Shown: positions 9,813 to 36,576 of the stretch, piece after piece
Layout of the letters: each line of letters opens with the position of its first letter
Position numbering within the stretch: position 1 is the stretch's first letter
DNA from: Flavobacterium succinicans LMG 10402
GTDB lineage: Bacteria; Bacteroidota; Bacteroidia; Flavobacteriales; Flavobacteriaceae
Assembly (NCBI RefSeq): GCF_000611675.1
Contig: NZ_JATV01000005.1
Span: forward strand, 1-64,000
DNA: 64,000 nucleotides
Direction of reading: 5' to 3'
Program-made: the position numbers and the translations under genes
Notes under the pieces: model-generated
What the model saw: only the letters and a program-made list of their open reading frames with translations
Told to the model about the DNA's origin: nothing
The model's database searches: none

Positions 9813-9886
9813 GGCCTCGTGGCGCAACTGAATAGCGCATCTGATTACGGCTCAGAAGGTTACTGGTTTGAATCCAGTCGAGGTCA
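9813..9886 (+). tRNA. tRNA-Arg (anticodon ACG)
   Basis: A 74-base cloverleaf can be folded by hand. The acceptor stem is GGCCTCG with CGAGGTC (one G-U pair). The anticodon stem TCTGA/TCAGA encloses loop TTACGGC, giving anticodon ACG. The T arm is ACTGG-TTTGAAT-CCAGT and the discriminator is A. The 3' CCA is not encoded. A34 is expected to be converted to inosine, reading CGT, CGC and CGA. Confidence 0.96.
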
Positions 9887-17718: not shown

Positions 17719-18900
17719 ATGAAGAAAATTACTCTTTTTATCGCACTAGTTGCGTTCGTCGCGAGCTGTGGCGTAAAACAAACCCAACAGCTAGTAAACA
17801 CTGGCAATTATGACGAAGCTATCAATAACGCCTTATCCAACTTAAGAACCAACAAAGACAAAAAAGGGAAACAAGATTACATCTACCTACTCGAAGAAGC
17901 CTTTGCAAAAGCAAAAGAAAGAGATTTGAACAACATTCAGATGCTAAACATTGAATCAAATCCGAATCAAATCGAAAAATTGTACAACTACTACGTTCAA
18001 TTAAACGATCGACAAGAAAAAATAAAACCCGTACTTCCTTTGTTTTTAATAAAAGAAGGTCGCAATGCTATTTTTCCTTTTGACAATTACAACAATCAAA
18101 TTGTTTCGAGTAAAAATGCTTTAGCTGAATATTTATACAAAAAAGCGCTACAATTGATAAAAACCAATACCAAAGCGAACTTCAGAAACGCTTTTGAAGA
18201 ATTGACCTATCTCAACAAAATTAGCCCTAATTACAGAGAAGTAAATCGATTATTAGACGAAGCCAAATTCAAAGGAACCGATTTTGTTTTGGTAAAAACG
18301 AAAAACGAAACCAACATGGTAATCCCAGAGCAGTTGCAGACCGATTTGCTGGACTTTAGTACTTACCAATTAAATAATCCTTGGATTGTGTATCACAGCA
18401 CACCACAAAAAGGAAACAAATATGACTACAGTATGAATATTCTTTTCAGAAATATTTCCGTATCGCCTGAACAAATAAAAGAACGTGAATTTGTAAAAGA
18501 ACGCGATATAAAAGACGGTTATAAGAAAGTAGTCGATGCCAACGGAAAAGTGGTACTAGACGACAAAGGAAAAGAAGTTTTGGTGGACAACCTTAGGAAA
18601 GTCTCAATACAGATTTATGAATTTCGTCAATTTAAATCCTGTCAAGTGACCGCAAAAGTTGACTTTATCAACACCAAAAACAATCAATTGATGCAGTCTT
18701 ACCCTATCACAAGCGAGTTTGTTTTCGAAAATATTTATGCTACTTACAAAGGAGACAGAAGAGCTACGGATGAAAATTACTTCGCCACATTTGATCGTAG
18801 AGCCGTTGCTTTTCCATCAACAGAGCAAATGATCTTCGATACAGGAGAAGATTTAAAGTCAAAAATCAAAAATGTAATGAATACCAACCGCTTCGAGTAA
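17719..18900 (+). CDS. Hypothetical lipoprotein, about 393 aa
   Basis: I do not recognise the family. The ATG at 17719 gives a clean lipoprotein signal: MKKITLFIALVAFVASC with lipobox VASC and Cys17. An upstream in-frame ATG would overlap the fahA terminator and was rejected. The N-terminal third is helical with repeat-like spacing (YDEAINNALSNLR, KKGKQDYIYLLEEAF), which suggests a TPR-like region. The C-terminal half is mixed, with a charged Lys/Glu/Asp segment near residues 255-300 (KEREFVKERDIKDGYKKV). It is probably anchored in the periplasm or outer membrane. It is a single gene followed by a terminator. Confidence 0.8.
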   Translation: MKKITLFIALVAFVASCGVKQTQQLVNTGNYDEAINNALSNLRTNKDKKGKQDYIYLLEEAFAKAKERDLNNIQMLNIESNPNQIEKLYNYYVQLNDRQEKIKPVLPLFLIKEGRNAIFPFDNYNNQIVSSKNALAEYLYKKALQLIKTNTKANFRNAFEELTYLNKISPNYREVNRLLDEAKFKGTDFVLVKTKNETNMVIPEQLQTDLLDFSTYQLNNPWIVYHSTPQKGNKYDYSMNILFRNISVSPEQIKEREFVKERDIKDGYKKVVDANGKVVLDDKGKEVLVDNLRKVSIQIYEFRQFKSCQVTAKVDFINTKNNQLMQSYPITSEFVFENIYATYKGDRRATDENYFATFDRRAVAFPSTEQMIFDTGEDLKSKIKNVMNTNRFE

Positions 18901-18944
18901 AAAAGAAGCTATCCATAAAAAACAATTATTCCCCTTATCGGGCT

Positions 18945-18981
18945 AAAAAAAGTGATTTTGACTTTCAAAATCACTTTTTTT
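18945..18981 (+). terminator. Terminator between the lipoprotein gene and the arg leader
   Basis: AAGTGATTTTG and its complement form a stem of at least 15 bp (18946-18960 with 18966-18980) with a 5-base loop, closed by A and T runs. It insulates the arginine cluster from upstream transcription. Confidence 0.88.
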
Positions 18982-19028
18982 GCTTTTAAAAATAAATTTT
19001 ATTTAATTTTAACAATTTAAAATAAAAT

Positions 19029-19062
19029 TTGATTTTTTATAAAAATTATTATCGTAAATTTG
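19029..19062 (+). promoter_or_regulatory. Predicted promoter of the arginine-proline cluster
   Basis: TAAATTTG at 19055-19062 fits the TAnnTTTG -7 box. A TTG at 19029-19031 lies 23 bases upstream, a slightly long spacing. With the usual start about 5-8 bases after the box, the transcript would begin almost at the ATG of the small ORF at 19068, leaving about 320 bases of leader before the GNAT gene. Confidence 0.6.
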
Positions 19063-19067
19063 CACCG

Positions 19068-19148
19068 ATGAAAAAAACAAGTTTACATATAACTTCTATC
19101 TACCGGATAAACTTACTTTGCGCTTCTCCCGAGGTGCGGATGCTATAG
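19068..19148 (+). CDS. Candidate leader peptide, 26 aa, upstream of arg cluster
   Basis: A 26-codon ORF (begins MKKTSLHITS, ends PEVRML) sits immediately downstream of the predicted promoter, so it would be translated leaderless or nearly so. It contains two Arg codons (residues 13 and 24), both CGG, a codon expected to be uncommon in such AT-rich DNA. It also has one Cys (residue 18). The 3' half is GC-richer and can form a hairpin (GCGCTTCTCCC with GAGGTGCG). Its position suggests a regulatory leader peptide. There is no homology evidence, and chance cannot be excluded for so short an ORF. Confidence 0.45.
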   Translation: MKKTSLHITSIYRINLLCASPEVRML

Positions 19149-19388
19149 CCTACAGTTTCCAAATAAGACTTTCTTACCTTTTATCCTTTCATTACTACCC
19201 CATTTGTCATATTTTTTTATTTCAAAATGGAAAAACAACAAAAACCAATTCTAACTACTAAGTAATTGTTATTAAAATAATTACAATAAAATAGTTGAAA
19301 ATTTTATAGTACTTTTAATAGCACATTGACTATGATTGCATTACAAAAAAAAAGAAAACAATTATTTAACCATAATTCGAATCCAGAA
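19149..19388 (+). other. Long untranslated leader before the GNAT gene
   Basis: About 240 bases between the leader ORF and the preferred GNAT start. The stretch opens pyrimidine-rich (19165-19205) and becomes very AT-rich. Partly complementary segments lie near 19260-19292 (GTAATT with AATTAC). A 12-codon ORF at 19227 is probably meaningless. I recognise no known riboswitch fold. Confidence 0.4.
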
Positions 19389-20006
19389 ATGAATATTTCT
19401 ATAGTAGTAGCACAAAAAGAACACTATGTATTTGCTGAAGAAATTTGTGATACCATCGAAACCTCGGCCTTACTAAGAGGAACGGGAATAGCCAAAAGAA
19501 CCCCAGAATACATCCAAAAGAAAATGGAAACCGAAAATGCGGTTATCGCCATAATCGATGGAAAATTCGCCGGTTTTTGTTATATCGAATCTTGGCAACA
19601 CGGACAATTCGTAGCCCATTCAGGTTTGATTGTACACCCAGACTTTAGAAATTTAGGATTAGCCAAAAAAATCAAAACATTCGTTTTTGAGTATTCACAA
19701 CAAAAATACCCAGAAGCCAAAGTTTTCGGTATCACGACTGGATTAGCAGTAATGAAAATCAATTCCGATTTAGGATACAAACCTGTTCCCTTTTCTCAAT
19801 TGACTACCGACCCTACTTTCTGGAAAGGTTGTCAAACTTGCACCAATTTTGAAATTCTAAAAAGCAAAGACTACAAAATGTGTTTGTGCACAGGAATGCT
19901 GTATGACCCCAAAGAAAAACAAAAAAATCCACCCAAACACCCTTTCAATGTCCGGATTTGGAATCGTTTAAAAGAAATCAAACAAGCCCTTTTCTTAAAA
20001 AAATAA
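19389..20006 (+). CDS. GNAT acetyltransferase heading the arg cluster (putative N-acylglutamate synthase)
   Basis: A 205-residue GNAT protein. The acyl-CoA region is around residues 78-100 (GLIVHPDFRNLGLAKKIK). In Bacteroidota a GNAT protein at this position is generally taken to perform the first step of arginine synthesis, acylation of glutamate; here that is inferred from context, as no classical argA or argJ is present. Odd: a C-terminal cysteine cluster C148-x2-C151-x13-C165-x-C167 that could bind metal. The start at 19389 (MNISIVVA) is preferred over an ATG at 19332, which adds a basic, low-complexity 19 residues. It lies 57 bases before argG. Confidence 0.78.
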   Translation: MNISIVVAQKEHYVFAEEICDTIETSALLRGTGIAKRTPEYIQKKMETENAVIAIIDGKFAGFCYIESWQHGQFVAHSGLIVHPDFRNLGLAKKIKTFVFEYSQQKYPEAKVFGITTGLAVMKINSDLGYKPVPFSQLTTDPTFWKGCQTCTNFEILKSKDYKMCLCTGMLYDPKEKQKNPPKHPFNVRIWNRLKEIKQALFLKK

Positions 20007-20063: not shown

Positions 20064-21263
20064 ATGGAAAATAAAAAAGTAGTATTAGCCTATAGCGGAG
20101 GATTAGACACTTCCTATTGTTTAAAATATTTAAAAAACGAAAAAGGATTCGAAGTACATACCGTATTAATTAACACGGGTGGATTTGATGATGCTGAGCT
20201 AAAAGCCATCGAAGACAGAGCTTACGAATTAGGAAGCGCCAAACACGCCAACCTTACTATTCTAGACAAATATTATGACAAAGCCATCAAATATTTGATT
20301 TATGGGAATGTCTTAAAAAACAACACCTATCCGTTATCAGTTAGTGCTGAGCGTGTTTTTCAAGCTATCGAAGCCATAAAATACGCCAAATCTGTTGGAG
20401 CCACAGCCATTGCACACGGAAGCACCGGTGCAGGAAATGACCAAATTCGTTTTGATTTAATTTTCCAAACCATCGCTCCCGAAATAGAAATCATCACTCC
20501 TATCCGTGATTTAAAACTATCTCGTCAGGAAGAAGTAGACTATTTAGCCAAAAACGGCGTGCATTATTCTTGGGAAAAAGCACAATATTCTATCAACAAA
20601 GGCCTTTGGGGAACCAGTGTGGGCGGAAAAGAAACCTTAACTTCAGGACAACCTTTACCAAGTGAGGCTTACCCTTCGCAATTGCAAAAAGAAGGAGAAG
20701 AGAAAGTAACTTTAGAATTCCAAAAAGGGGAATTGGTTGCGATAAATGGCAAAGCAGATAAACCTTCTAATAATATTGTGGCCTTAGAAAAATTGGCTAG
20801 CGCTTACGCCATCGGGAGAGACATTCACGTGGGCGACACCATTATCGGTATCAAAGGAAGAGTTGGTTTTGAGGCCGCAGCCCCATTAATCATCATCAAA
20901 GCACACCATTTGTTAGAAAAACATACACTCGGCAAATGGCAACAATACTGGAAAGAACAACTGGGCAATTGGTACGGGATGCTATTCCACGAAGGACAAT
21001 TTTTAGACCCAGTGATGCGCAATATCGAAACGTTCTTAGAAGACACGCAAAAAACAGTCAACGGAACCGTAACGGTCTCTTTAAAACCGTATCATTTCAG
21101 CTTAGACGGCATCGAATCACCAAACGATTTAATGAACACCGGCTTCGGTCAATACGGCGAAATGAACAATGCTTGGACCTCTGACGATGCCAAAGGATTC
21201 ATCAAAATTCTTGGCAATGCGCAAAACATATTTTCATCTGTGAATCAAGAAACTTACGAATAG
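20064..21263 (+). CDS. argG: Argininosuccinate synthase
   Basis: A 399-residue cytoplasmic enzyme that joins citrulline and aspartate using ATP, the seventh step of arginine synthesis. Seen: the ATP pyrophosphatase loop LAYSGGLDTSY (about 8-18), AHGSTGAGNDQIRF, and DLKLSRQEEVDYL. The family length is normal. It is the second gene of the cluster. A 217-base spacer with two repeat elements separates it from argC. Confidence 0.96.
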   Translation: MENKKVVLAYSGGLDTSYCLKYLKNEKGFEVHTVLINTGGFDDAELKAIEDRAYELGSAKHANLTILDKYYDKAIKYLIYGNVLKNNTYPLSVSAERVFQAIEAIKYAKSVGATAIAHGSTGAGNDQIRFDLIFQTIAPEIEIITPIRDLKLSRQEEVDYLAKNGVHYSWEKAQYSINKGLWGTSVGGKETLTSGQPLPSEAYPSQLQKEGEEKVTLEFQKGELVAINGKADKPSNNIVALEKLASAYAIGRDIHVGDTIIGIKGRVGFEAAAPLIIIKAHHLLEKHTLGKWQQYWKEQLGNWYGMLFHEGQFLDPVMRNIETFLEDTQKTVNGTVTVSLKPYHFSLDGIESPNDLMNTGFGQYGEMNNAWTSDDAKGFIKILGNAQNIFSSVNQETYE

Positions 21264-21310
21264 TATAATTACTGATTAGGATCGAAAGTTCAGGCATTTT
21301 TGGAGACATT

Positions 21311-21404
21311 AGTTCCCGCTATCCGTTGCAATCTTTGTAGGCTGAACCCCAGCCCACAAAGGATTTCCACTACTATCGGGGCTAAAAGAGAAAAAACGGG
21401 AACT
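21311..21404. repeat. Structured intergenic repeat, family A copy 1 (argG-argC spacer)
   Basis: A GC-richer element with nested complementarity. AGTTCCCG (21311-21318) can pair with CGGGAACT (21397-21404). The core hairpin is CTTTGT-A-GGCT (21333-21343), loop GAACCCC, AGCC-C-ACAAAG (21351-21361), flanked by AAT/ATT pairing. A second copy at 36315-36380 has the same GAACCCC loop and compensated stem bases. Confidence 0.75.
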
Positions 21405-21480: not shown

Positions 21481-22458
21481 ATGATTACTATTGGAATTAT
21501 TGGCGGTTCGGGTTATACGGCTGGCGAACTCATCAGAATCTTGATGTTTCATCCCAACGCCAAACTCGACTTTGTGTACAGCACCACCAATGCGGGAAAA
21601 CCCCTTTCGGTAGCGCATCAAGATGTGTTGGGCGACATCGAAATGAATTTTACGGACACTATCAACCCTAATGTAAACGTTCTATTTCTGTGTCTAGGTC
21701 ACGGAAAATCCAAAGCCTTTTTATCCGAAAATACATTTGCCAGCCATACCAAAATCATTGATTTAGGCAACGATTTCAGGTTGGAAAAAGACGAAGTGTT
21801 TGAGGGCAAAAAATTCATATACGGCTTACCAGAACTGAACAAAAAAGCCATTAAAAATGGACAATTCATTGCCAATCCGGGATGTTTTGCCACCGCGATT
21901 CAATTGGCTTTATTGCCTTTGGCGGAAGCCAAATCACTCAACAGCGATGTGCACATCAATGCCACAACCGGAAGTACAGGAGCTGGAGTGAGTCTTTCAG
22001 AAACCTCACACTTTAGTTGGAGAAACAACAATATGTCACATTACAAAGCTTTTGAACACCAACATTTGGGAGAAATTGGCGAAAGTTTGCACCAATTACA
22101 GGAAGATTTCAAAAACGAATTGATTTTTATTCCTAATCGAGGTGATTTTCCAAGAGGAATTTTTGCCACCTTGTATACCCATTGTGAGGAAAGCTTAGAA
22201 GATGTTGTGGCCAAATATGAAGCTTTTTACAAAAACGAACCATTTGTAACTGTTACCACTACCAACATTAATTTAAAACAAGTGGTTCAAACCAATAAAT
22301 GCATCATTAGTTTGATGAAAAAAGGCAACCGAATTTTGATTACTTCGGTTATTGATAACTTAGTCAAAGGCGCCTCAGGTCAAGCCATTCAGAATATGAA
22401 CTTGCTCTTTGGACTAGACGAAAGTACCGGATTGCATTTGAAACCAAGTGGATTTTAA
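21481..22458 (+). CDS. argC: N-acetyl-gamma-glutamyl-phosphate reductase
   Basis: A 325-residue NADPH enzyme that reduces acylglutamyl phosphate to the semialdehyde. Seen: the dinucleotide-binding start IGIIGGSGYTAGEL (4-17), the catalytic Cys135 in ANPGCFATAI, and NATTGSTGAGVSL. The ending SGQAIQNMNLLFG is typical. The length is that of the short type 1 enzymes. The acyl group it handles (acetyl or succinyl) cannot be read from the sequence. It follows a repeat-filled spacer and precedes argD by 82 bases. Confidence 0.95.
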   Translation: MITIGIIGGSGYTAGELIRILMFHPNAKLDFVYSTTNAGKPLSVAHQDVLGDIEMNFTDTINPNVNVLFLCLGHGKSKAFLSENTFASHTKIIDLGNDFRLEKDEVFEGKKFIYGLPELNKKAIKNGQFIANPGCFATAIQLALLPLAEAKSLNSDVHINATTGSTGAGVSLSETSHFSWRNNNMSHYKAFEHQHLGEIGESLHQLQEDFKNELIFIPNRGDFPRGIFATLYTHCEESLEDVVAKYEAFYKNEPFVTVTTTNINLKQVVQTNKCIISLMKKGNRILITSVIDNLVKGASGQAIQNMNLLFGLDESTGLHLKPSGF

Positions 22459-22470
22459 AAAAATTGTTTC

Positions 22471-22518
22471 AAGTTTAAAAGTTTAAAGTTGCTCGTGTAA
22501 CCTTAAACCTTAAACTTT
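22471..22518. repeat. AT-rich hairpin repeat in the argC-argD spacer
   Basis: The left arm at 22471-22490 (two copies of GTTTAAA) and right arm at 22499-22518 pair nearly throughout, with G-U pairs, around loop GCTCGTGT. The right arm contains AACCTTAAACCTT, also present at 14891-14903 near glyA. Confidence 0.55.
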
Positions 22519-22540
22519 AAACCATAAACAAAAAACAACA

Positions 22541-23677
22541 ATGAACCTATTCGACGTTTACCCATTATACAACATCACACCAGTAAAAGCAGTAGACTGC
22601 ACCATTACAGATGAAAACGGTGTGGAATATTTAGATTTATACAGCGGTCACGGAGTCATCTCCATTGGGCACACACAACCGCATTATGTGACGAAAGTAA
22701 AAGAACAATTGGACAATATTGGATTTTATTCTAACGCCATCCAAAATCCATTACAAGTAGAATTAGCCCAAAAATTAGGTGAATTATCAGGCTATGATGA
22801 TTACTCTTTGTTTTTATGCAGCTCAGGAGCCGAAGCCAATGAAAACGCACTAAAATTAGCCTCTTTCCACAACGGAAAATCGAGAGTGATTGCTTTTGAC
22901 AACTCTTTTCACGGAAGAACATCAGCAGCAGTTGCGGTAACGGACAACAAAAAAATTGTAGCGCCCATTAATGCTCAACAAGTGGTTACTTTTTTACCAC
23001 TAAACCAAATTGATTTGGTAGAAACCGAATTACAAAAAGGCGATGTCTGCACCGTGATTATTGAAGGGATTCAAGGTGTGGGAGGTTTAGATGAAGGCAC
23101 AACTGAATTTTTTCAAGCCTTAGAAAAACTGTGCAAACAATACGAAGCAGTTTTGATTCTAGACGAGGTACAATCGGGTTATGGCAGAAGCGGGAAGTTT
23201 TTTGCGCATCAGTACCATAACATCAAAGCGGATATCATTTGTTTGGCCAAAGGAATGGGCAACGGTTTCCCGATTGGAGGAATTTTGATTGCTCCACATT
23301 TTAAAGCGAGTTATGGCTTGCTAGGCACTACTTTTGGTGGAAGTCATTTGGCTTGTGCCGCTGGAATTGCCGTTTTGGATGTAATCAAGAGCGAGAAGTT
23401 AATGGATAATGTAAACGCCGTTAGCGAGTATTTTATGAAAGCCATCCAACAAGTGCCTGAAATCATCAAAGTGAAAGGAAAAGGATTGATGCTAGGCGTA
23501 GAATTTGATTTTGACGTGAGCGCCTTACGCAAGAAAATGATTGTAGAAAAACATATTTTTACAGGAAGTGCCAACAATAAAAACTTATTGAGAATTTTAC
23601 CGCCTTTGACCATTACCACAGCCGCAATTGATACCTTTATCGTTGCCTTGAAAGAGTCGTTGGCTGAATTGAAATAA
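22541..23677 (+). CDS. argD: Acylornithine aminotransferase (class III)
   Basis: A 378-residue PLP transaminase that converts acylglutamate semialdehyde to acylornithine. Seen: LDLYSGHGVISIGH, the PLP-phosphate loop CSSGAEANENALKLA (93-107), SFHGRTSAAVAVT, VIIEGIQGVGG, LILDEVQSGYGRSG and the Schiff-base Lys237 in CLAKGMGNGFPIGG. The length is slightly short, as in other Bacteroidota members. Position between argC and proA fits the role. It is followed by a GC-rich spacer of 140 bases. Confidence 0.94.
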   Translation: MNLFDVYPLYNITPVKAVDCTITDENGVEYLDLYSGHGVISIGHTQPHYVTKVKEQLDNIGFYSNAIQNPLQVELAQKLGELSGYDDYSLFLCSSGAEANENALKLASFHNGKSRVIAFDNSFHGRTSAAVAVTDNKKIVAPINAQQVVTFLPLNQIDLVETELQKGDVCTVIIEGIQGVGGLDEGTTEFFQALEKLCKQYEAVLILDEVQSGYGRSGKFFAHQYHNIKADIICLAKGMGNGFPIGGILIAPHFKASYGLLGTTFGGSHLACAAGIAVLDVIKSEKLMDNVNAVSEYFMKAIQQVPEIIKVKGKGLMLGVEFDFDVSALRKKMIVEKHIFTGSANNKNLLRILPPLTITTAAIDTFIVALKESLAELK

Positions 23678-23687
23678 GAAACTGCGT

Positions 23688-23724
23688 GAGTATTCCTTGC
23701 CAGTCCGCTGCGTGAGGAATAGTC
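23688..23724. repeat. Hairpin in the GC-rich argD-proA spacer
   Basis: GAGTATTCCT (23688-23697) pairs with AGGAATAGTC (23715-23724) with one mismatch. CTGCGTGAG occurs twice in the same spacer (23682 and 23708). The rest of the spacer (to 23817) stays GC-rich and includes CTGAGCCTGTCGAAG, a sequence I recall seeing between genes in many bacteria. Confidence 0.45.
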
Positions 23725-23817
23725 CTGATTTTTTCATCGGGAAGCGGGAAAACCGACCTACTGAGCCTGTCGAAGTATCGGGTGGGGCACGCTCAAAAAA
23801 TTAACTAACCAAAAACT

Positions 23818-25014
23818 ATGAATACACTACTAACCATCGAAAAGAGAAACGCCGTTTTAACCACGATGACGGCTTTGCTAGCGCAGGAACGAACGGCGTT
23901 GAAAAGTAGTAACCAACAAGATTTAGCCAATTATTCCGGAGAAGATTTGGCAATGGAAAAACGTTTGTTGGTCGATGATGCTAAAATTGACAGTATGATT
24001 TTGTCCTTACAACAATTGGCCAGTCAAGAAGACCCTGTGGGAAAAATTCGCTTCGAATTTGTTCACGATAATGGTCTTAAAATTTATAATAAGACTGCTG
24101 CATTTGGCACTATTTTAATTATTTATGAGTCTCGACCTGATGTAACAGTTGAAGCGGGTGGTATTGCTTTTAAGTCAGGAAATAAAATCCTTTTGAAAGG
24201 CGGCAAAGAATCATTATTGTCGAATCAAAAGATTGTAAGTCTTTGGCATCAAGCTTTGGAAAACAATGGTGTAGCAACGGATTGGGTAGAATACCTGAAT
24301 TACGATAGAGCACAAACCCAAGCTTTTTTGGAAAAACCAACTCAAAAGGTCGATTTGATTGTGCCTCGTGGAGGAGAAAAACTAATTGAATTCACCAAAA
24401 AACACGCTACTTGTCCGGTGATTGTAAGTGGACGCGGTAATAATTTTGTGTACGTAAACGCCGATGCCGACTTAGATAAAGCAATGTCAGTTATTATTAA
24501 CGCAAAAACCTCAAATATATCTGTTTGCAATGCTTTAGATAAAGTATTAATTGATATAAATTTACCGAATTGGGAAGTCTTTGCTAACCAATTAATTCGT
24601 GCTTTGCAGGAACGAAAAGTGACTGTTTTGGGAGATGCCACAATTGCCAAAACAACTCATATCCCTCAAATTGATTCAGACGAGATTTGGTATGAAGAAT
24701 TTTTGGATTATAAAATTGTACTTGGCATTGTTTCTTCTAATCAAGAAGCAATAGCTAAAATCAATAAATATTGCGGAGGTCACTCAGCTGCTATCATCAC
24801 CGAAAGTGAAACTACAGCCCAAGAATTTATGGATAACGTTGATGCTTCATCCGTTTACCATAATGCTTCGACTCGTTTTACCGACGGAGGGCAATTTGGT
24901 TTAGGCGGAGAATTAGCCATCAGCACAGACAAATTACACCAACGCGGCCCAATTGGTTTACAACATTTGGTCACCAACAAATGGTATATTTACGGAGAAG
25001 GACAGATTCGGTAG
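23818..25014 (+). CDS. proA: Gamma-glutamyl phosphate reductase
   Basis: A 398-residue NADPH enzyme making glutamate semialdehyde for proline. Seen: GTILIIYESRPDVTVEAGG, KSGNKILLKGGKES, DLIVPRGGEKLI, the catalytic Cys237 in SVCNALDKVLID, and the C-terminal DASSVYHNASTRFTDGGQFG LGGE region. The length is usual. Its TAG stop codon is the second to fourth base of a 28-bp palindrome, so the repeat has become part of the gene end. It lies upstream of proB, placing the two steps next to each other inside the arginine cluster. Confidence 0.96.
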   Translation: MNTLLTIEKRNAVLTTMTALLAQERTALKSSNQQDLANYSGEDLAMEKRLLVDDAKIDSMILSLQQLASQEDPVGKIRFEFVHDNGLKIYNKTAAFGTILIIYESRPDVTVEAGGIAFKSGNKILLKGGKESLLSNQKIVSLWHQALENNGVATDWVEYLNYDRAQTQAFLEKPTQKVDLIVPRGGEKLIEFTKKHATCPVIVSGRGNNFVYVNADADLDKAMSVIINAKTSNISVCNALDKVLIDINLPNWEVFANQLIRALQERKVTVLGDATIAKTTHIPQIDSDEIWYEEFLDYKIVLGIVSSNQEAIAKINKYCGGHSAAIITESETTAQEFMDNVDASSVYHNASTRFTDGGQFGLGGELAISTDKLHQRGPIGLQHLVTNKWYIYGEGQIR

Positions 25015-25038
25015 GGACAAGTCGCGACTTGTCCCTAC
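25011..25038. repeat. Perfect 28-bp palindrome at the proA stop codon (family B copy 1)
   Basis: GTAGGGACAAGTCG (25011-25024) is followed directly by its exact complement (25025-25038). The proA TAG stop (25012-25014) lies inside. A second copy at 28797-28824 differs by A to G on one arm and T to C on the other, keeping the palindrome. Confidence 0.9.
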
Positions 25039-25081
25039 ATATCCCAACCCAATGCACAATCTGTTTGTAAAAAAATATAAA

Positions 25082-25843
25082 ATGACAAAAAAAAGAATAT
25101 TATTAAAATTAGGCAGCAATACCTTAACCAAGGAAACCAATCATATCTCGAGAGGAAAGATTGAGGATATTGGAATGCAAATTGCCGCGCTACAAGACCA
25201 ATACGAATTCATTATTGTAAGTTCTGGGGCGATTGCCGCTGCCAAACAATTTGTTAAGCTAGACAATAATGACCAAGAAGTCTTTGTAAAACAAGCCTTA
25301 GCATCTATTGGGCAACCCCATTTGATGCGTATTTATCACGAAAATTTCAGTGATTTAGGATTGCATATTTCACAATGCCTACTCTCCTATTCTGATTTTG
25401 AGAAAGAACAATCCAAAGTCAATATCGTGAATACCATCAATGTTTTGGTCAAAAACAATTACATTCCCATCATCAATGAAAATGACACGGTGGCCACTGA
25501 CGAAATCAAGTTTGGCGATAACGATAAATTAGCCGCTTTGGCAGCCGTATTGTTAGATGTAGATATTTTGATTATTGCTACCAATACGAATGGTATTTAC
25601 ACCAAAGCGTCTATTAACGATGCACTTCCATCAACGATTGAACTAGTAACCGATTTGTCTTTACTAGAAAAAGAAATAGGCGATAAAAAATCGTCTCACG
25701 GAACTGGAGGAATGCAATCTAAAATAGAATCGGCAGCCATTGCCAAAAAAGCCAATATTGAGACTTGGATTGTGAATGGCCTAGAAGATGATTTTATGCG
25801 GAAAGCGCTGCGGAATGAAATCCCTTTCACTAAAATTATTTAA
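25082..25843 (+). CDS. proB: Glutamate 5-kinase, short form without PUA domain
   Basis: A 253-residue amino-acid kinase that phosphorylates glutamate for proline synthesis. Seen: LLKLGSNTLT (7-16), IVSSGAIAAAKQ, IINENDTVATDEIKFGDNDKLAALAA and GTGGMQSKIESAAIA. The protein ends after the kinase fold; the C-terminal PUA domain of the 367-residue E. coli enzyme is absent. I chose the ATG at 25082; longer in-frame starts lie within proA and the palindrome. It follows proA by 67 bases and argF' comes 65 bases later. Confidence 0.94.
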   Translation: MTKKRILLKLGSNTLTKETNHISRGKIEDIGMQIAALQDQYEFIIVSSGAIAAAKQFVKLDNNDQEVFVKQALASIGQPHLMRIYHENFSDLGLHISQCLLSYSDFEKEQSKVNIVNTINVLVKNNYIPIINENDTVATDEIKFGDNDKLAALAAVLLDVDILIIATNTNGIYTKASINDALPSTIELVTDLSLLEKEIGDKKSSHGTGGMQSKIESAAIAKKANIETWIVNGLEDDFMRKALRNEIPFTKII

Positions 25844-25908
25844 CTTAGAGCCACTAAAAATCACAAACTACAAATCCGCTTATTCAGCATTCTAATAAAG
25901 ATAAAGCT

Positions 25909-26883
25909 ATGAATTACACCTCAATAAAAGAAATCGATTCCCTAAAGAAATGGGTAAAACAAGCCCTTAAAATAAAGAAAGACCCATTAAAAAATCAAAG
26001 ATTGGGTAAAGACAAAACATTGGTTATGCTCTTTTTCAATCCAAGTTTGAGAACGCGTTTGAGTACTCAAAAAGCAGCCATCAATCTAGGAATGAATGTG
26101 ATGGTGATGAACTTTGGTACTGAAGGATGGACTTTGGAGTTCGAAGACGGCACAATTATGAATCAAGGTGCCTCAGAACACATTAAAGAAGCCGCCGAAG
26201 TCGTTTCACAATATTGTGATATTATTGCCATCAGAGCTTTTGCGGGACTAACGGATAAAGAAAAAGATAATGCAGAAACTGTGTTGAATGGTTTTGTAAA
26301 ATATGCCACTGTGCCAATTGTCAATATGGAAAGCGCAACAGGTCATCCGCTACAATCCTTGGCCGATGCGATTACAATGGCCGAATTCAAAACCAAACAC
26401 AAACCTAAAGTAGTGCTGACTTGGGCGCCACATCCAAAAGCATTACCTCAAGCTGTGGCCAATTCGTTTGTAGAAATGATGCAACTGCAAAGAGATATGG
26501 ATTTTGTAATTACGCATCCAGAAGGGTATGAATTGAATCCTGAAATCACCAAGGATTCGGTAATAGAATACAATCAGAATAAAGCTTTTGAAAATGCTGA
26601 TTTTATTTATGCCAAAAACTGGAGCAATTACAACGACTACGGGAAAGTGACCAATACAGATGAAAATTGGACCGTTACCGCCGATAAAATGAAGTTGACG
26701 AACAATGCCAAATTTATGCATTGTCTTCCGGTGCGTCGCAATGTTATTGTAGCCGATGAAGTGATTGATAGCGAAAACTCCATTGTGATTCAGCAAGCCC
26801 ATAACAGAACCTATTCGGCACAATTGGTTTTACAAAAAATACTGAAAAGATTACCTAATAAAACCAAAAGTTTAGAGTATTAA
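25909..26883 (+). CDS. argF': N-acylornithine carbamoyltransferase (acetyl or succinyl type)
   Basis: A 324-residue transcarbamylase of the AOTCase/SOTCase branch, making acylcitrulline. Seen: the carbamoyl-phosphate loop SLRTRLSTQ (46-54), MESATGHPLQSLAD, TWAPHPKALPQA and HCLPVRRN. From memory of published work, the residue just before the conserved EH in loop 80-92 is Glu92 in Xanthomonas AOTCase and Pro90 in Bacteroides fragilis SOTCase, and swapping it swaps specificity. Here the residue is Ser89 (codon 26173-26175), so specificity cannot be assigned. It is 9 bases from argB. Confidence 0.9.
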   Translation: MNYTSIKEIDSLKKWVKQALKIKKDPLKNQRLGKDKTLVMLFFNPSLRTRLSTQKAAINLGMNVMVMNFGTEGWTLEFEDGTIMNQGASEHIKEAAEVVSQYCDIIAIRAFAGLTDKEKDNAETVLNGFVKYATVPIVNMESATGHPLQSLADAITMAEFKTKHKPKVVLTWAPHPKALPQAVANSFVEMMQLQRDMDFVITHPEGYELNPEITKDSVIEYNQNKAFENADFIYAKNWSNYNDYGKVTNTDENWTVTADKMKLTNNAKFMHCLPVRRNVIVADEVIDSENSIVIQQAHNRTYSAQLVLQKILKRLPNKTKSLEY

Positions 26884-26892
26884 TTCAAAAGA

Positions 26893-27669
26893 ATGGAACA
26901 ACTAACAATAGTAAAAATCGGTGGTAATATTATAGATAATCCAGCCGAGCTAGAACAGTTCATTGCCGATTTTTCAAAAATTGAAGGCTATAAAGTGTTG
27001 GTGCACGGCGGTGGAAAATCAGCTACCAAAATGGCAAAAAGTATTGGTTTAGTCCCCCAAATGATAGATGGAAGACGCATCACCGACCAGCCTATGCTAG
27101 ACGTTGTCGTGATGATTTATGCGGGCGAAATCAACAAAAATATCGTAGCACAATTACACGCAAATGGAACTAATGCAATGGGCTTTTCTGGGGCGGATGG
27201 CAATTTGATTCAGTCCACCAAAAGAAATCATCCCACGATTGATTACGGTTTTGTGGGCGATGTACAAAAAGTAAACACCTCTTTGTTAGAAACATTGCTA
27301 AAAAACGAGATAACACCGGTTTTTTGCGCTATTACACACGATAAACAAGGACAATTATTGAATACGAATGCTGATACGATTGCTAGTGAATTGGCCATTG
27401 CATTGTCGGAAGTTTTTAAAGTAACTTTGACGTATTGCTTCGAAAAATCGGGAGTTTTGTATGATGCAGAAGACGACACTTCTGTTATCGAAAACATCAA
27501 TAAAGAACTGTATGACCGATTAAAAACAGAAGGCGCCATACATTCAGGGATGATTCCAAAACTAGACAATTGCTTTAACAGCTTGTCCAAAGGCGTTCAT
27601 AAAATAAAAATTGGACATCACAAATTATTGAAAGACAACAACGCACTTTGTACCAGTATAACATTATAG
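26893..27669 (+). CDS. argB: Acetylglutamate kinase
   Basis: A 258-residue amino-acid kinase that phosphorylates N-acylglutamate, the second step. Seen: IVKIGGNIID (6-15), VLVHGGGKSATKMAKS, the acylglutamate-site DGRRITDQPMLDVV, NTNADTIASELA and IHSGMIPKLDNC. It is short and lacks the N-terminal helix found in arginine-inhibited hexameric enzymes, so feedback inhibition is less likely (inference). It starts 9 bases after argF'. Confidence 0.94.
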   Translation: MEQLTIVKIGGNIIDNPAELEQFIADFSKIEGYKVLVHGGGKSATKMAKSIGLVPQMIDGRRITDQPMLDVVVMIYAGEINKNIVAQLHANGTNAMGFSGADGNLIQSTKRNHPTIDYGFVGDVQKVNTSLLETLLKNEITPVFCAITHDKQGQLLNTNADTIASELAIALSEVFKVTLTYCFEKSGVLYDAEDDTSVIENINKELYDRLKTEGAIHSGMIPKLDNCFNSLSKGVHKIKIGHHKLLKDNNALCTSITL

Positions 27670-27678
27670 ATTACTAAC

Positions 27679-27711
27679 AACCCTTTCAGAATTCAAAACT
27701 CTGAAAGGGTT
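27679..27711. repeat. Hairpin repeat in argB-argE spacer (family C copy 1)
   Basis: AACCCTTTCAGA (27679-27690) and its exact complement TCTGAAAGGGTT (27700-27711) enclose a 9-base loop. A degenerate relative lies at 36208-36240 after clpB. I recall this AACCC..TCAGA motif as common between genes in Bacteroidota. Confidence 0.8.
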
Positions 27712-27723
27712 AAATTAAAAATT

Positions 27724-28794
27724 TTGAAAACCATTACAACCCTTACACAAGAAGCCATCGCCTTACTAAAAGCATTGATTGCGACTCCTTCCTTTTCTAG
27801 TGAAGAGGAACAAACTGCGCTTTTAATTGAACAATGGTTCCAGCAAAATAACATTCCCTTTGAGCGGGAAAACAATAATATTTGGGCGTATAACCAACAC
27901 TTTGATGCAGCTAAACCCACTCTTTTACTCAACTCCCATCACGATACGGTAAAACCCAACCAAGGCTATACCAATAATCCTTTTGAACCTATCGAAAAAG
28001 ACGGGAAGTTATTTGGTCTCGGCAGTAACGATGCTGGAGGTTGTTTAGTGGCTTTATTGGCCACTTTTGTTCATTTTTATGCTCAAGAAAATTTGCCTTA
28101 CAATTTGGTTATGGTCGCTTCTGCAGAAGAAGAAAGCAGTGGCAAAAACGGATTGAATAGCGTACTAAAACATTTACCAGAAATTGATTGTGCCATCGTG
28201 GGCGAACCTACATTAATGCAACTGGCCATTGCCGAAAAAGGACTCTTGGTTTTAGATGTAGTCGTAAAAGGTACCGCAAGCCACGCAGCACATCATAATC
28301 CTGACAATCCTATTTACAATGCGATGCCTATCATCAGTTGGTTAAACAGTTACCAATTCGAAAAAGTATCAGAAGTTTTAGGACCTGTAAAAATGACGGT
28401 AACCCAAATCAACGCAGGAAAACAACACAATGTAGTACCTGCTGAATGCCATTTGGTAGTCGATATTCGAGTAAATGATTGTTATACCAATGCGGAGATA
28501 TTAGATACGGTTCGTCAACAAGTGAAAGCTGAGATTACACCGCGTTCTATGCATCTCAATGCTTCTTCTATTCCTCTTTCACACGGATTAGTACAAGCAG
28601 GAATCGCGTTAAGCCGCACCACCTATGGCTCTCCTACGCTTTCGGACCAATCGGTGTTGAGTTGCCAGTCGCTAAAACTTGGCCCGGGAGAAACCCTGAG
28701 GTCACACTCGGCAGACGAATTTATCTACATCAATGAAATCGAAGAAGGAATTGAATTGTACATTAAAATATTGACAGATTTTTTAAAAAATTAA
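27724..28794 (+). CDS. argE: M20-family deacylase (acylornithine/acylcitrulline deacylase)
   Basis: A 356-residue metallopeptidase-fold enzyme that removes the acyl group so that citrulline (or ornithine) is released. Seen: metal and catalytic motifs LNSHHDTVKP (His73, Asp75 region), GLGSNDAGGC, ASAEEESSGKNG with the catalytic Glu pair, VGEPT, and the C-terminal HSADEFIYINEIEEG. The start codon is TTG at 27724 (MKTITTLTQEA); no ATG lies near. Because the carbamoyltransferase acts on acylornithine, the natural substrate is probably acylcitrulline. The gene sits between two palindromes. Confidence 0.88.
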   Translation: MKTITTLTQEAIALLKALIATPSFSSEEEQTALLIEQWFQQNNIPFERENNNIWAYNQHFDAAKPTLLLNSHHDTVKPNQGYTNNPFEPIEKDGKLFGLGSNDAGGCLVALLATFVHFYAQENLPYNLVMVASAEEESSGKNGLNSVLKHLPEIDCAIVGEPTLMQLAIAEKGLLVLDVVVKGTASHAAHHNPDNPIYNAMPIISWLNSYQFEKVSEVLGPVKMTVTQINAGKQHNVVPAECHLVVDIRVNDCYTNAEILDTVRQQVKAEITPRSMHLNASSIPLSHGLVQAGIALSRTTYGSPTLSDQSVLSCQSLKLGPGETLRSHSADEFIYINEIEEGIELYIKILTDFLKN

Positions 28795-28828
28795 TTGTAG
28801 GGACAGGTCGCGACCTGTCCCTACAATT
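28793..28828. repeat. Perfect 36-bp palindrome at the argE stop codon (family B copy 2)
   Basis: The left half (28793-28810, ending GGACAGGTCG) is followed by its exact complement (28811-28828). It begins inside the argE TAA stop codon (28792-28794) and ends 16 bases before argH. The core is the same as at 25011-25038 with one compensated pair. Confidence 0.92.
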
Positions 28829-28844
28829 CAAAAAATAAAATAAT

Positions 28845-30125
28845 ATGAAACTCTGGGAAAAAGGAATACCAACCGACAAACAAATCGAACATTTTACGGT
28901 AGGAAATGACCGTGAATTAGATTTGGTTTTGGCCAAATACGATGCTTTAGGCTCTATCGCTCACGCTAAAATGTTGGCTCAAATAGGATTATTGGAACCA
29001 GCAGAAGCTGATGACTTAGTTTTGGCCTTACAAGATATAATTACAACTATCGAAAAAGGAGATTTCGAAATCGAAGACAGTTTTGAAGACGTACATTCCA
29101 AAATCGAGTATTTATTGACCGAAAAACTAGGCGACGCTGGTAAAAAAATACACACGGCACGTTCTCGAAACGACCAAGTGTTAGTGGATGTCAATTTATA
29201 TTTGAAAGACGTTGTCATAGCACTCAAAGAACAAGTAAAAACGCTATTCGATTTGTTGATGGAATCCGCTGAACAGTATCAAAATGTACTATTACCTGGC
29301 TATACGCATTTGCAAATTGCTATGCCATCTTCCTTTGGTATGTGGTTTTCTGCTTATGCCGAAACCTTGATAGACGATATCACGATGTTGAATGCTGCCT
29401 TGAAAGTGGTAGATCAAAATCCGTTAGGTTCTGCTGCTGGTTATGGTAGTTCCTTCCCCATCAACCGAACCTTTACTACTCGGGAATTAGGCTTTGCCAC
29501 TTTAAAATTCAATTCGGTAGCAGCACAAATGAGCCGTGGAAAATCTGAAAAAACAGTTGCTTTTGCTATGAGTAGCGTGGCTGCGACTTTGGCAAAATTC
29601 TCTATGGATGTGTGTCTATATATGAGCCAAAACTTCGATTTCATTAGTTTACCAGCGCATTTAACGACTGGTTCAAGCATTATGCCGCACAAAAAGAATC
29701 CAGATGTTTTTGAATTAATCCGTGGGAAATGCAATAAAATTCAAGCTTTGCCTTATGAAATCACTTTAATCACAAACAACCTTCCTAGTGGCTATCATCG
29801 TGAATTTCAATTACTGAAAGAAGGATTATTTCCCGCAATCCAAAATCTAAAAGCGTGTTTGGATATTGCCATTTTTTCCATCAAAGACATCAAGGTAAAA
29901 GACAACATTCTAGCCGATCCAAAATACAATTACCTATTTACTGTGGATACATTAAACGAAATGGTAGTAGCAGGAATGCCTTTTAGAGACGCCTACAAAG
30001 CGGTGGCAGAACAATTAGAAAATGGTACTTACGAATCACCAAAAGCTACCCAGCATACGCATGAAGGAAGTATCAATAATTTGTGTTTGAAAGAGATTAA
30101 AGAGAAAATGCTAAACGCATTTTAA
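28845..30125 (+). CDS. argH: Argininosuccinate lyase
   Basis: A 426-residue enzyme of the fumarase/aspartase superfamily that releases arginine and fumarate. Seen: ARSRNDQV, LPGYTHLQIAMPSSFG, and the signature GSSIMPHKKNPD starting at residue 276 with the catalytic Ser loop. It is the last gene of the cluster and is followed by a strong terminator, which fits a single long transcript. The C terminus is slightly short compared with E. coli ArgH. Confidence 0.96.
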   Translation: MKLWEKGIPTDKQIEHFTVGNDRELDLVLAKYDALGSIAHAKMLAQIGLLEPAEADDLVLALQDIITTIEKGDFEIEDSFEDVHSKIEYLLTEKLGDAGKKIHTARSRNDQVLVDVNLYLKDVVIALKEQVKTLFDLLMESAEQYQNVLLPGYTHLQIAMPSSFGMWFSAYAETLIDDITMLNAALKVVDQNPLGSAAGYGSSFPINRTFTTRELGFATLKFNSVAAQMSRGKSEKTVAFAMSSVAATLAKFSMDVCLYMSQNFDFISLPAHLTTGSSIMPHKKNPDVFELIRGKCNKIQALPYEITLITNNLPSGYHREFQLLKEGLFPAIQNLKACLDIAIFSIKDIKVKDNILADPKYNYLFTVDTLNEMVVAGMPFRDAYKAVAEQLENGTYESPKATQHTHEGSINNLCLKEIKEKMLNAF

Positions 30126-36240: not shown

Positions 36241-36314
36241 ATTCAACAACACCAGTCGAAAGATTGGTGTTTTTTTTAGGAGCAGTAACACCTTTTTTCA
36301 TAATAACTTTCCCT

Positions 36315-36380
36315 CCCGCTGTCCGCAGTATCTTTAGGGCTGAACCCCAGCCCTAAAGGATACTTGCTCCCATCGGGGCT
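36315..36380. repeat. Structured intergenic repeat, family A copy 2
   Basis: The core stem GTATCTTTAGGGCT (36328-36341) and AGCCCTAAAGGATAC (36349-36363) pairs along its whole length with a single bulge, around loop GAACCCC. Outer CCCG (36315-36318) can pair with CGGG (36374-36377). The same loop and frame are seen at 21311-21404, while stem bases differ in compensating ways. Confidence 0.8.
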
Positions 36381-36576
36381 GAATAGAAAAAATGCTTTGC
36401 ATCACTACATTTTCAAAAGATTGATAGAATCAACTTAAACAAAATAAATACAAAATGACCCTTATTTTATTCCTATAATTTGGTGTTTTTCTTTAGATTT
36501 GCCTCACTCATTTGTAAACACATAGTCAAGCAAATAATTGGAGAAGAAATGCTTTTTATAAATCAATAGCCAAAAA

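Follow-up and report, generated by a model that had tools for sequence, protein, structure and literature searches.

In the best-studied bacteria, arginine operons are known to be controlled by the ArgR repressor. The his, trp, leu, and thr operons have attenuators, in which the operon transcript opens with a short ORF that carries codons for the end product, helices form inside and behind the ORF, and the biosynthetic operon of that amino acid follows. Leader ORFs with arginine codons have been described as well. Salmonella speF is preceded by orf34, an arginine-sensing leader ORF with rare Arg codons, including one CGG that adjoins the stop codon; however, the gene under control is a polyamine gene, the peptide has a DUF2618 core, control involves Rho, RNA structure, and RNA decay, the leader also answers to ornithine, and frequent Arg codons regulate too (excerpts of PMC6386406). 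Staphylococcus aureus rbfL is likewise a leader ORF with rare Arg codons and a scarce tRNA, but its target is the ribosome binding site of a regulator gene, which it blocks, and it represses under arginine limitation (excerpts of PMC13009471). For Flavobacterium psychrophilum, a study of structured 5' regions states that strong clues point to leader-peptide attenuation ahead of amino-acid operons; the portion of that study examined names no arginine leader, and argG is absent from its main text (excerpts of PMC9723704). Attenuators and Arg-codon leaders such as speF orf34 and rbfL are already known; in the literature searched, with its limited coverage of subscription journals, we found no report of the argG leader described here, or of an arginine leader before argG elsewhere in Bacteroidota.

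We analyzed a 64,000-nucleotide stretch of the Flavobacterium succinicans LMG 10402 genome (contig NZ_JATV01000005.1, positions 1 to 64,000; hereafter, the window). The original prediction, made from the letters of the DNA, placed a TAnnTTTG box five bases ahead of a 26-codon ORF, and this proved exact to the base: on the plus strand, the promoter -7 box TAAATTTG (19055-19062) is separated by bases 19063-19067 from the ATG (19068-19070) of an ORF that encodes MKKTSLHITSIYRINLLCASPEVRML and closes with the stop codon TAG at 19146-19148 (whole ORF, 19068-19148). Both of its Arg codons, Arg13 (19104-19106) and Arg24 (19137-19139), are CGG, and we propose both as regulatory. The codon had been expected to be uncommon in this genome, and in the window (GC 35%) it accounts for 14 of the 562 Arg codons (2.5%) across 51 ORFs; the chance of both leader Arg codons being CGG is ∼6e-4. 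The predicted cysteine is present as Cys18 but is not conserved among relatives, and the spacer to the GNAT gene, put at about 240 bases, measures 240 up to the ATG at 19389, the start shared by homologues. The hairpins, the helix P3, and the probable leaderless start described below, like the non-conservation of the cysteine, go beyond that prediction.

The operon behind the ORF, also on the plus strand, begins with a GNAT-family N-acetyltransferase gene (19389-20006; PF00583 above cut-off) and argG (20064-21263), for which the best models were all argininosuccinate synthase, at scores below their cut-offs (TIGR00032, 257.2 versus 268.2). Profile models then identified argC, an argD-like gene, proA, proB, a gene for N-acetylornithine carbamoyltransferase, argB, an ArgE/DapE-type deacylase gene, and argH (21481-30125). 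The argD-like gene and the deacylase gene scored below model cut-offs, the best model for the latter being a dapE, and argC, proA, proB, the carbamoyltransferase gene, argB, and argH scored above them. This gene content points to an operon that makes arginine. Two Flavo-1 RNAs (RF01705) lie on the minus strand, one just behind argG (21308-21387) and the other at 36308-36384.

Searching 60 genomes at the DNA level, including the one that holds the window, returned 11 same-genus matches (E 1e-29 to 4e-6) that spanned the ORF and all or part of the box, save for one that covered only the first half of the ORF (G033). GNAT and argG lay downstream in all 11, and in 8 of these 11 clear relatives the aligned DNA stopped at query base 147-148, 1-2 bases short of the end of the ORF. 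We built a peptide model from 11 peptides and applied it at an E threshold of 0.01. It matched 83 of 199 Flavobacterium genomes, one of them falsely (G120, the only match without GNAT, which we removed ahead of every count), and 13 more members of the genus in an order-wide draw of 296 genomes; matches outside the genus (best E 0.002, most E 0.01-1) were taken as chance. With one locus retained per genome, 95 true leaders remained. All 95 precede the same GNAT-argG genes, with the GNAT motif 386-427 bases downstream, and all have the box 4-6 bases before the ATG, with a single mismatch in one leader. Their consensus is M-N-K-x-S-L-H-I-T-S-x-S-R-x-N-x-P-x-T-S-P-E-V-R-x-L, in which SPEVR is kept most of all.

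The conservation of the ORF and of its CGG codons, which the original prediction had named as the check to make, was found for both. Arginine occupied both sites in 95/95 leaders; the second was always encoded by CGG, and the first by CGG in 93, AGG in G112, and CGC in G141. Elsewhere in the peptides, arginine occurred 24 times: at position 16 (AGA 13 times, CGA and AGG once each), position 18 (AGG, 3), position 17 (CGT, 1), position 5 (CGT, 2; AGA, 1), and position 21 (CGG, 2, in G033 and G141). CGG thus made up 188/190 codons at the two conserved sites versus 2/24 elsewhere. As judged by this comparison, which shows the pattern throughout the set, both sites remain arginine, and within Flavobacterium the rare codon CGG encodes it with few exceptions.

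A GNAT of at least 70% identity was found in 90 of the 199 genomes, and 82 of these had the leader by the model. Five others (G009, G011, G024, G134, and G153) carry a diverged leader at the matching place, with three CGG codons and no more than one Arg codon of another kind; the sole candidate in G195 starts with GTG and carries one CGG and one AGA; and in G167 and G192 the sequence stops at a contig edge before the leader. The peptide model gave no true leader match in the remaining 109 genomes, 21 of which carry a GNAT of ∼55-64% identity. We checked one locus of this lower-identity kind (L342, genome G218; GNAT of the 57-60% type), and argG follows there too. Two further Flavobacterium loci with a 57-60% GNAT, L179 (G181) and L180 (G020), carry another kind of leader candidate, MKKTDLNMTFISDN..SRVSRVRA, in which CGG and CGC are used.

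To describe selection on the ORF, we used a non-redundant set (A2) of 52 of the 95 leaders, all below 90% identity. The leader frame was open in 52/52, and the other two frames in 0/52 and 12/52. Gaps before column 79 occurred in five leaders and were all of three bases, and in the 47 rows free of gaps, entropy averaged 0.49, 0.58, and 0.77 at the three codon positions, the third being the most variable. This comparison shows a leader ORF under coding selection, and together with the position of the box it argues that a short ORF close to the start of the operon transcript is translated. We placed that transcript start at 19067 or 19068, 0-1 base before the ATG, because of the box spacing in published Flavobacterium promoters. 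The TAnnTTTG box of F. psychrophilum occupies -12 to -5, and 5.5% of the mRNAs examined there were leaderless (excerpts of PMC9723704); for F. johnsoniae, a gap of 4-5 bases from element to start was the mark of a probable promoter, and the leader exceeded 10 bases in 87% of the transcripts so assigned (excerpts of PMC6847099). We infer that the leader mRNA is itself leaderless.

We then compared 80 named loci, split into 58 with a GNAT identity of at least 72% (L236-L292 and L301, almost all with Flavobacterium in their titles) and a remaining 22, from Psychroserpens, Winogradskyella, Lacinutrix, Gelidibacter, Mariniflexile, Flaviramulus, and more; the search took only ORFs with at least two Arg codons behind a box. 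In the Flavobacterium-type loci, a leader was found in 57/58, the one miss being a metagenome-assembled genome (MAG) with a frameshift within the A-run of the leader (L237), and CGG accounted for 115 of 134 Arg codons. One Flavobacterium MAG (L292) has a leader with five Arg codons and zero CGG. The 22 other loci yielded 17 leaders, 16 of them convincing, and CGG was 1 of their 83 Arg codons; this sole CGG sits in the doubtful L294, which is titled uncultured Flavobacterium, has a GNAT of 66%, and was counted among the 17. In other Flavobacteriaceae generally, short ORFs behind a TAnnTTTG-like box upstream of the orthologous GNAT gene are Arg-rich, for example MLKTQNKNERPSSLPARRRRR, MILIKNIIRPSSPAIALRRRRSAH, and MKNLKNKIRCTIPGLPVRSRRRF, and many end in runs such as RRRR; the 16 convincing leaders contain four to eight Arg codons each (CGC, CGT, or AGA). 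ORFs with at least four Arg codons were found in 16/22 of these loci versus 3/440 shuffled upstream regions, and ORFs with at least two in 17/22 versus 25/440. Since Arg-rich ORFs with differing codons recur across genera, arginine is what stays constant, and codon number and choice changed in one clade; this is the strongest result of our analysis, read from sequence comparison.

Beyond the family or genus, L324, L330, L334, and L339, from other families of the class, have Arg-rich short ORFs before GNAT-argG, with AGG/AGA, CGA, or mixed codons; they were the most convincing of 25 such loci, and arginine leaders may be class-wide. We also observed a second Arg-rich element ∼100 bases before GNAT in L144, L146, L147, L158, L168, and others, an open frame ending in RRRP whose stop codon sits in the loop of a hairpin, CGCCC-GTAA-GGGTG, followed by GGAACTTAGGTGAGTCCGGTTCC. 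A two-part pattern found this element in 22/48 loci, of which L183 was spurious, and missed some true ones. The element is the only leader in some genera, and no Rfam family matched it.

We next examined RNA structure in the 52 leaders. Hairpin P1 (GCGCTTC TCCC GAGGTGC; 19120-19137) lies inside the ORF before Arg24 and had double changes at 3/6 pairs. Hairpin P2 (19138-19160) runs from the end of the Arg24 codon past the stop codon, and the Arg24 codon lies at the foot of both hairpins. P2 had 94.1% of its cells paired across the 52 leaders and is weak in the window. The combined set P0+Pa+P1+P2 had 87.9% of cells paired versus 38-48% when slid, although it was predicted from the same 52 leaders, so that the slid control favors the structure. 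Double changes occurred at 12/28 of its pairs, a count that includes P0, and 0/500 shuffles were as good. The window domain was more stable than 60 dinucleotide shuffles (z -3.0), with a mean z of -2.4 over the 52 leaders and 47/52 below -1.

For long-range pairing, we swapped 5' and 3' segments between species, a test that is independent of the alignment. The strongest of 35 overlapping blocks joined nt 33-52, around the Arg13 codon, to nt 90-112 and 93-118 behind P2, with z of -7.9 and -7.7 in the 52 leaders and -3.2 and -2.8 in 17 leaders below 75% identity, values uncorrected for shared descent. In the window this helix, P3, pairs GGATAAA (19105-19111) with TTTATCC (19180-19186), ∼20 bases behind P2, and by duplex fold a P3-shaped best duplex was present in 43/52 leaders and absent in 9. 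Leaders of other genera behaved similarly: in a run of 17, which left out L155 from the 18 of the first run, nt 10-36 with 85-120 stood out of 20 blocks (z -4.6), likewise joining the 5' part of the ORF to a T-rich stretch behind the stop. Several candidates were set aside. P0, which pairs the start-codon region with TTTTATTCAT, appeared in the alignment fold and in the window's own fold, but it failed the swap test (1357/2000 permutations as good) and was not counted as coevolving. Blocks nt 33-52 and 37-50 with 140-165 fell from z -3.3 and -3.6 in the 52 leaders to -0.8 and -1.6 in the 17 below 75% identity, and nt 24-40 with 160-185 from -3.2 to -1.7. By this comparison, the RNA is shown to fold into P1, P2, and the long-range P3, with the first CGG placed within the 5' arm of P3 in the majority of leaders, a structure that a stalled ribosome would disturb. 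In relatives (A2 columns 145-195, for example L008), a conserved TTTTGAAAT block and a TTGGATT..ATCCAA hairpin lie behind the attenuator; both are degraded in the window.

The GG of each CGG codon pairs in a helix (P3 and P2, respectively), and structure may explain part of the conservation of CGG. Selection at the codon level is nevertheless likely on this evidence, because AGG would serve the pairing too and, in the five diverged leaders, CGG appears in different surroundings. Among 50 tRNA matches in the genome (48 contigs) we found three tRNA-Arg genes, with anticodons ACG (window position 9813), TCT, and TCG, and none with CCG or CCT. Under the usual wobble rules, this set of genes would leave tRNA-Arg(UCG) as the sole reader of CGG, provided that the search missed no tRNA gene. 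According to selective-charging theory, a rare codon gains sensitivity only where the supply of its tRNA is low relative to how often the codon is used (excerpts of PMC1183508), so codon rarity alone is no proof of sensitivity.

Taken together, the conserved arginine sites, and the Arg-rich leaders at the matching place in other genera, support the arginine leader peptide first suggested for this ORF, and we hold with high confidence that it is one; the mini-gene very probably lets the cell sense an arginine shortage and adjust the operon. In our preferred reading, to which we give a probability of roughly 0.57, the feature is an arginine leader-peptide attenuator with a leaderless start, and P3 is kept from forming by a ribosome that waits on CGG. 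With plentiful charged arginyl-tRNA, the ribosome would reach the stop codon and leave, P3-P1-P2 would fold, and transcription would end in the T-rich, G-poor stretch behind P3 (19187-19230), a possible termination region by its base composition. When arginine is short, the ribosome would wait at the Arg13 codon and cover the 5' arm of P3, or alternatively at the Arg24 codon and cover P1/P2; with the structure blocked, RNA polymerase would read on into the operon. Compared with the his, trp, leu, and thr attenuators, the start here is probably leaderless and two rare CGG codons take the place of a run; one closing helix was found, no antiterminator emerged from our search of the leader structure, and there is no clear terminator. 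The Arg-rich leaders of other Flavobacteriaceae (for example L147, L158, and L160) share the place, the kind of promoter box, and a helix from the 5' part of the ORF to the T-rich stretch that passes the swap test. They differ in the number and choice of their Arg codons and in that 15/18 of the far-promoter ones, by the first pattern part alone, have the second element, which the window lacks. Two slow CGG codons may match the effect of the more numerous common codons elsewhere. As a tentative and quite possibly mistaken extension, one Flavobacterium clade could have rebuilt an ancestral arginine-run attenuator as a two-codon sensor, in which two or three CGG, read by the single tRNA-Arg(UCG), replace the four to eight common Arg codons and the first CGG lies in the 5' arm of the helix that closes the terminator, such that one stalled ribosome on a leaderless mRNA would switch the operon without an antiterminator.

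The read-out is where an alternative carries most weight. The same arginine-codon leader could act through Rho-dependent termination, or through control of translation or RNA stability, with no intrinsic terminator at P3. A consensus terminator scan of 18880-19420 found no terminator-like site, but this silence is weak because the scan also misses the plain hairpin at ∼18940-18985, a long A-T-rich structure ending in T7 behind the preceding gene, itself a likely terminator. At least seven T in nine bases were present behind P3 in 51/52 leaders, which speaks for an intrinsic terminator; a control stretch gave 26/52, so T-richness there is only partly special. The T run of the window itself is weak, with at most six T in nine bases over leader nt 98-145, and this run and the control lowered our confidence in the P3 read-out. 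Rho sites are often richer in C than G, and behind the ORF C exceeded G in 51/52 leaders (mean 35 C and 21 G). Both speF orf34, acting via Rho and RNA decay (excerpts of PMC6386406), and rbfL, acting at a ribosome binding site (excerpts of PMC13009471), set precedents for such read-outs. Direct masking of the GNAT start is disfavored: swap tests of five leader segments with the 40 bases that lead up to the GNAT ATG showed no pairing signal (z -1.3 to +1.9). We regard a Rho, translation, or stability read-out as possible, if doubtful. The leader is not, on our evidence, a member of the speF orf34/DUF2618 family, having no Pfam match at E 1 and an argG operon, not speF, behind it.

The remaining alternatives dispense with codon-dependent waiting. 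Fungal arginine attenuator peptides stall their own ribosome in response to free arginine, and the conserved peptide here (LHITSxSR...TSPEVR) might do the same, as its retention across 95 leaders, SPEVR above all, would suggest. However, SPEV coincides with hairpin P1, the leaders in G033 and G141 and the five diverged ones retain CGG but lose SPEV, and the leaders of other genera have little but arginine in common, making nascent-peptide arrest very unlikely. We find it harder still to credit an untranslated structured cis-RNA, whether a riboswitch or a protein site, with the ORF accidental. The conserved helices, and the participation of the GG of CGG in them, are what such an RNA would offer; the frame open in every leader of the set, the three-base gaps, the variable third positions, the retention of arginine via AGG and CGC, and the Arg-rich ORFs of other genera go against it. 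No Rfam family matched the leader at the gathering score, and matches up to E 10 were far below gathering, with none overlapping the ORF. Least probable of all is a small protein with its own function in trans: the peptide is conserved and probably translated, but it has no Pfam match and its sequence differs widely between genera save for arginine.

Read as an arginine-codon attenuator, the leader would turn many genera of Flavobacteriaceae into a natural comparison set of attenuators with varying codon choice, in which the question of rare versus common leader codons becomes testable within one operon. If the start is as we place it, translation of the leader peptide would begin with the very first base of the mRNA, in a group of bacteria that lacks Shine-Dalgarno sequences. 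Two records deserve mention. At G203:C1:579497-580110 the leader is intact and GNAT matches as two overlapping pieces with read-through stops, possibly a broken gene or a sequencing error. A record titled Klebsiella pneumoniae MAG (L247) has a Flavobacterium-type arg locus with the leader, and is probably a mis-binned or mis-named contig.
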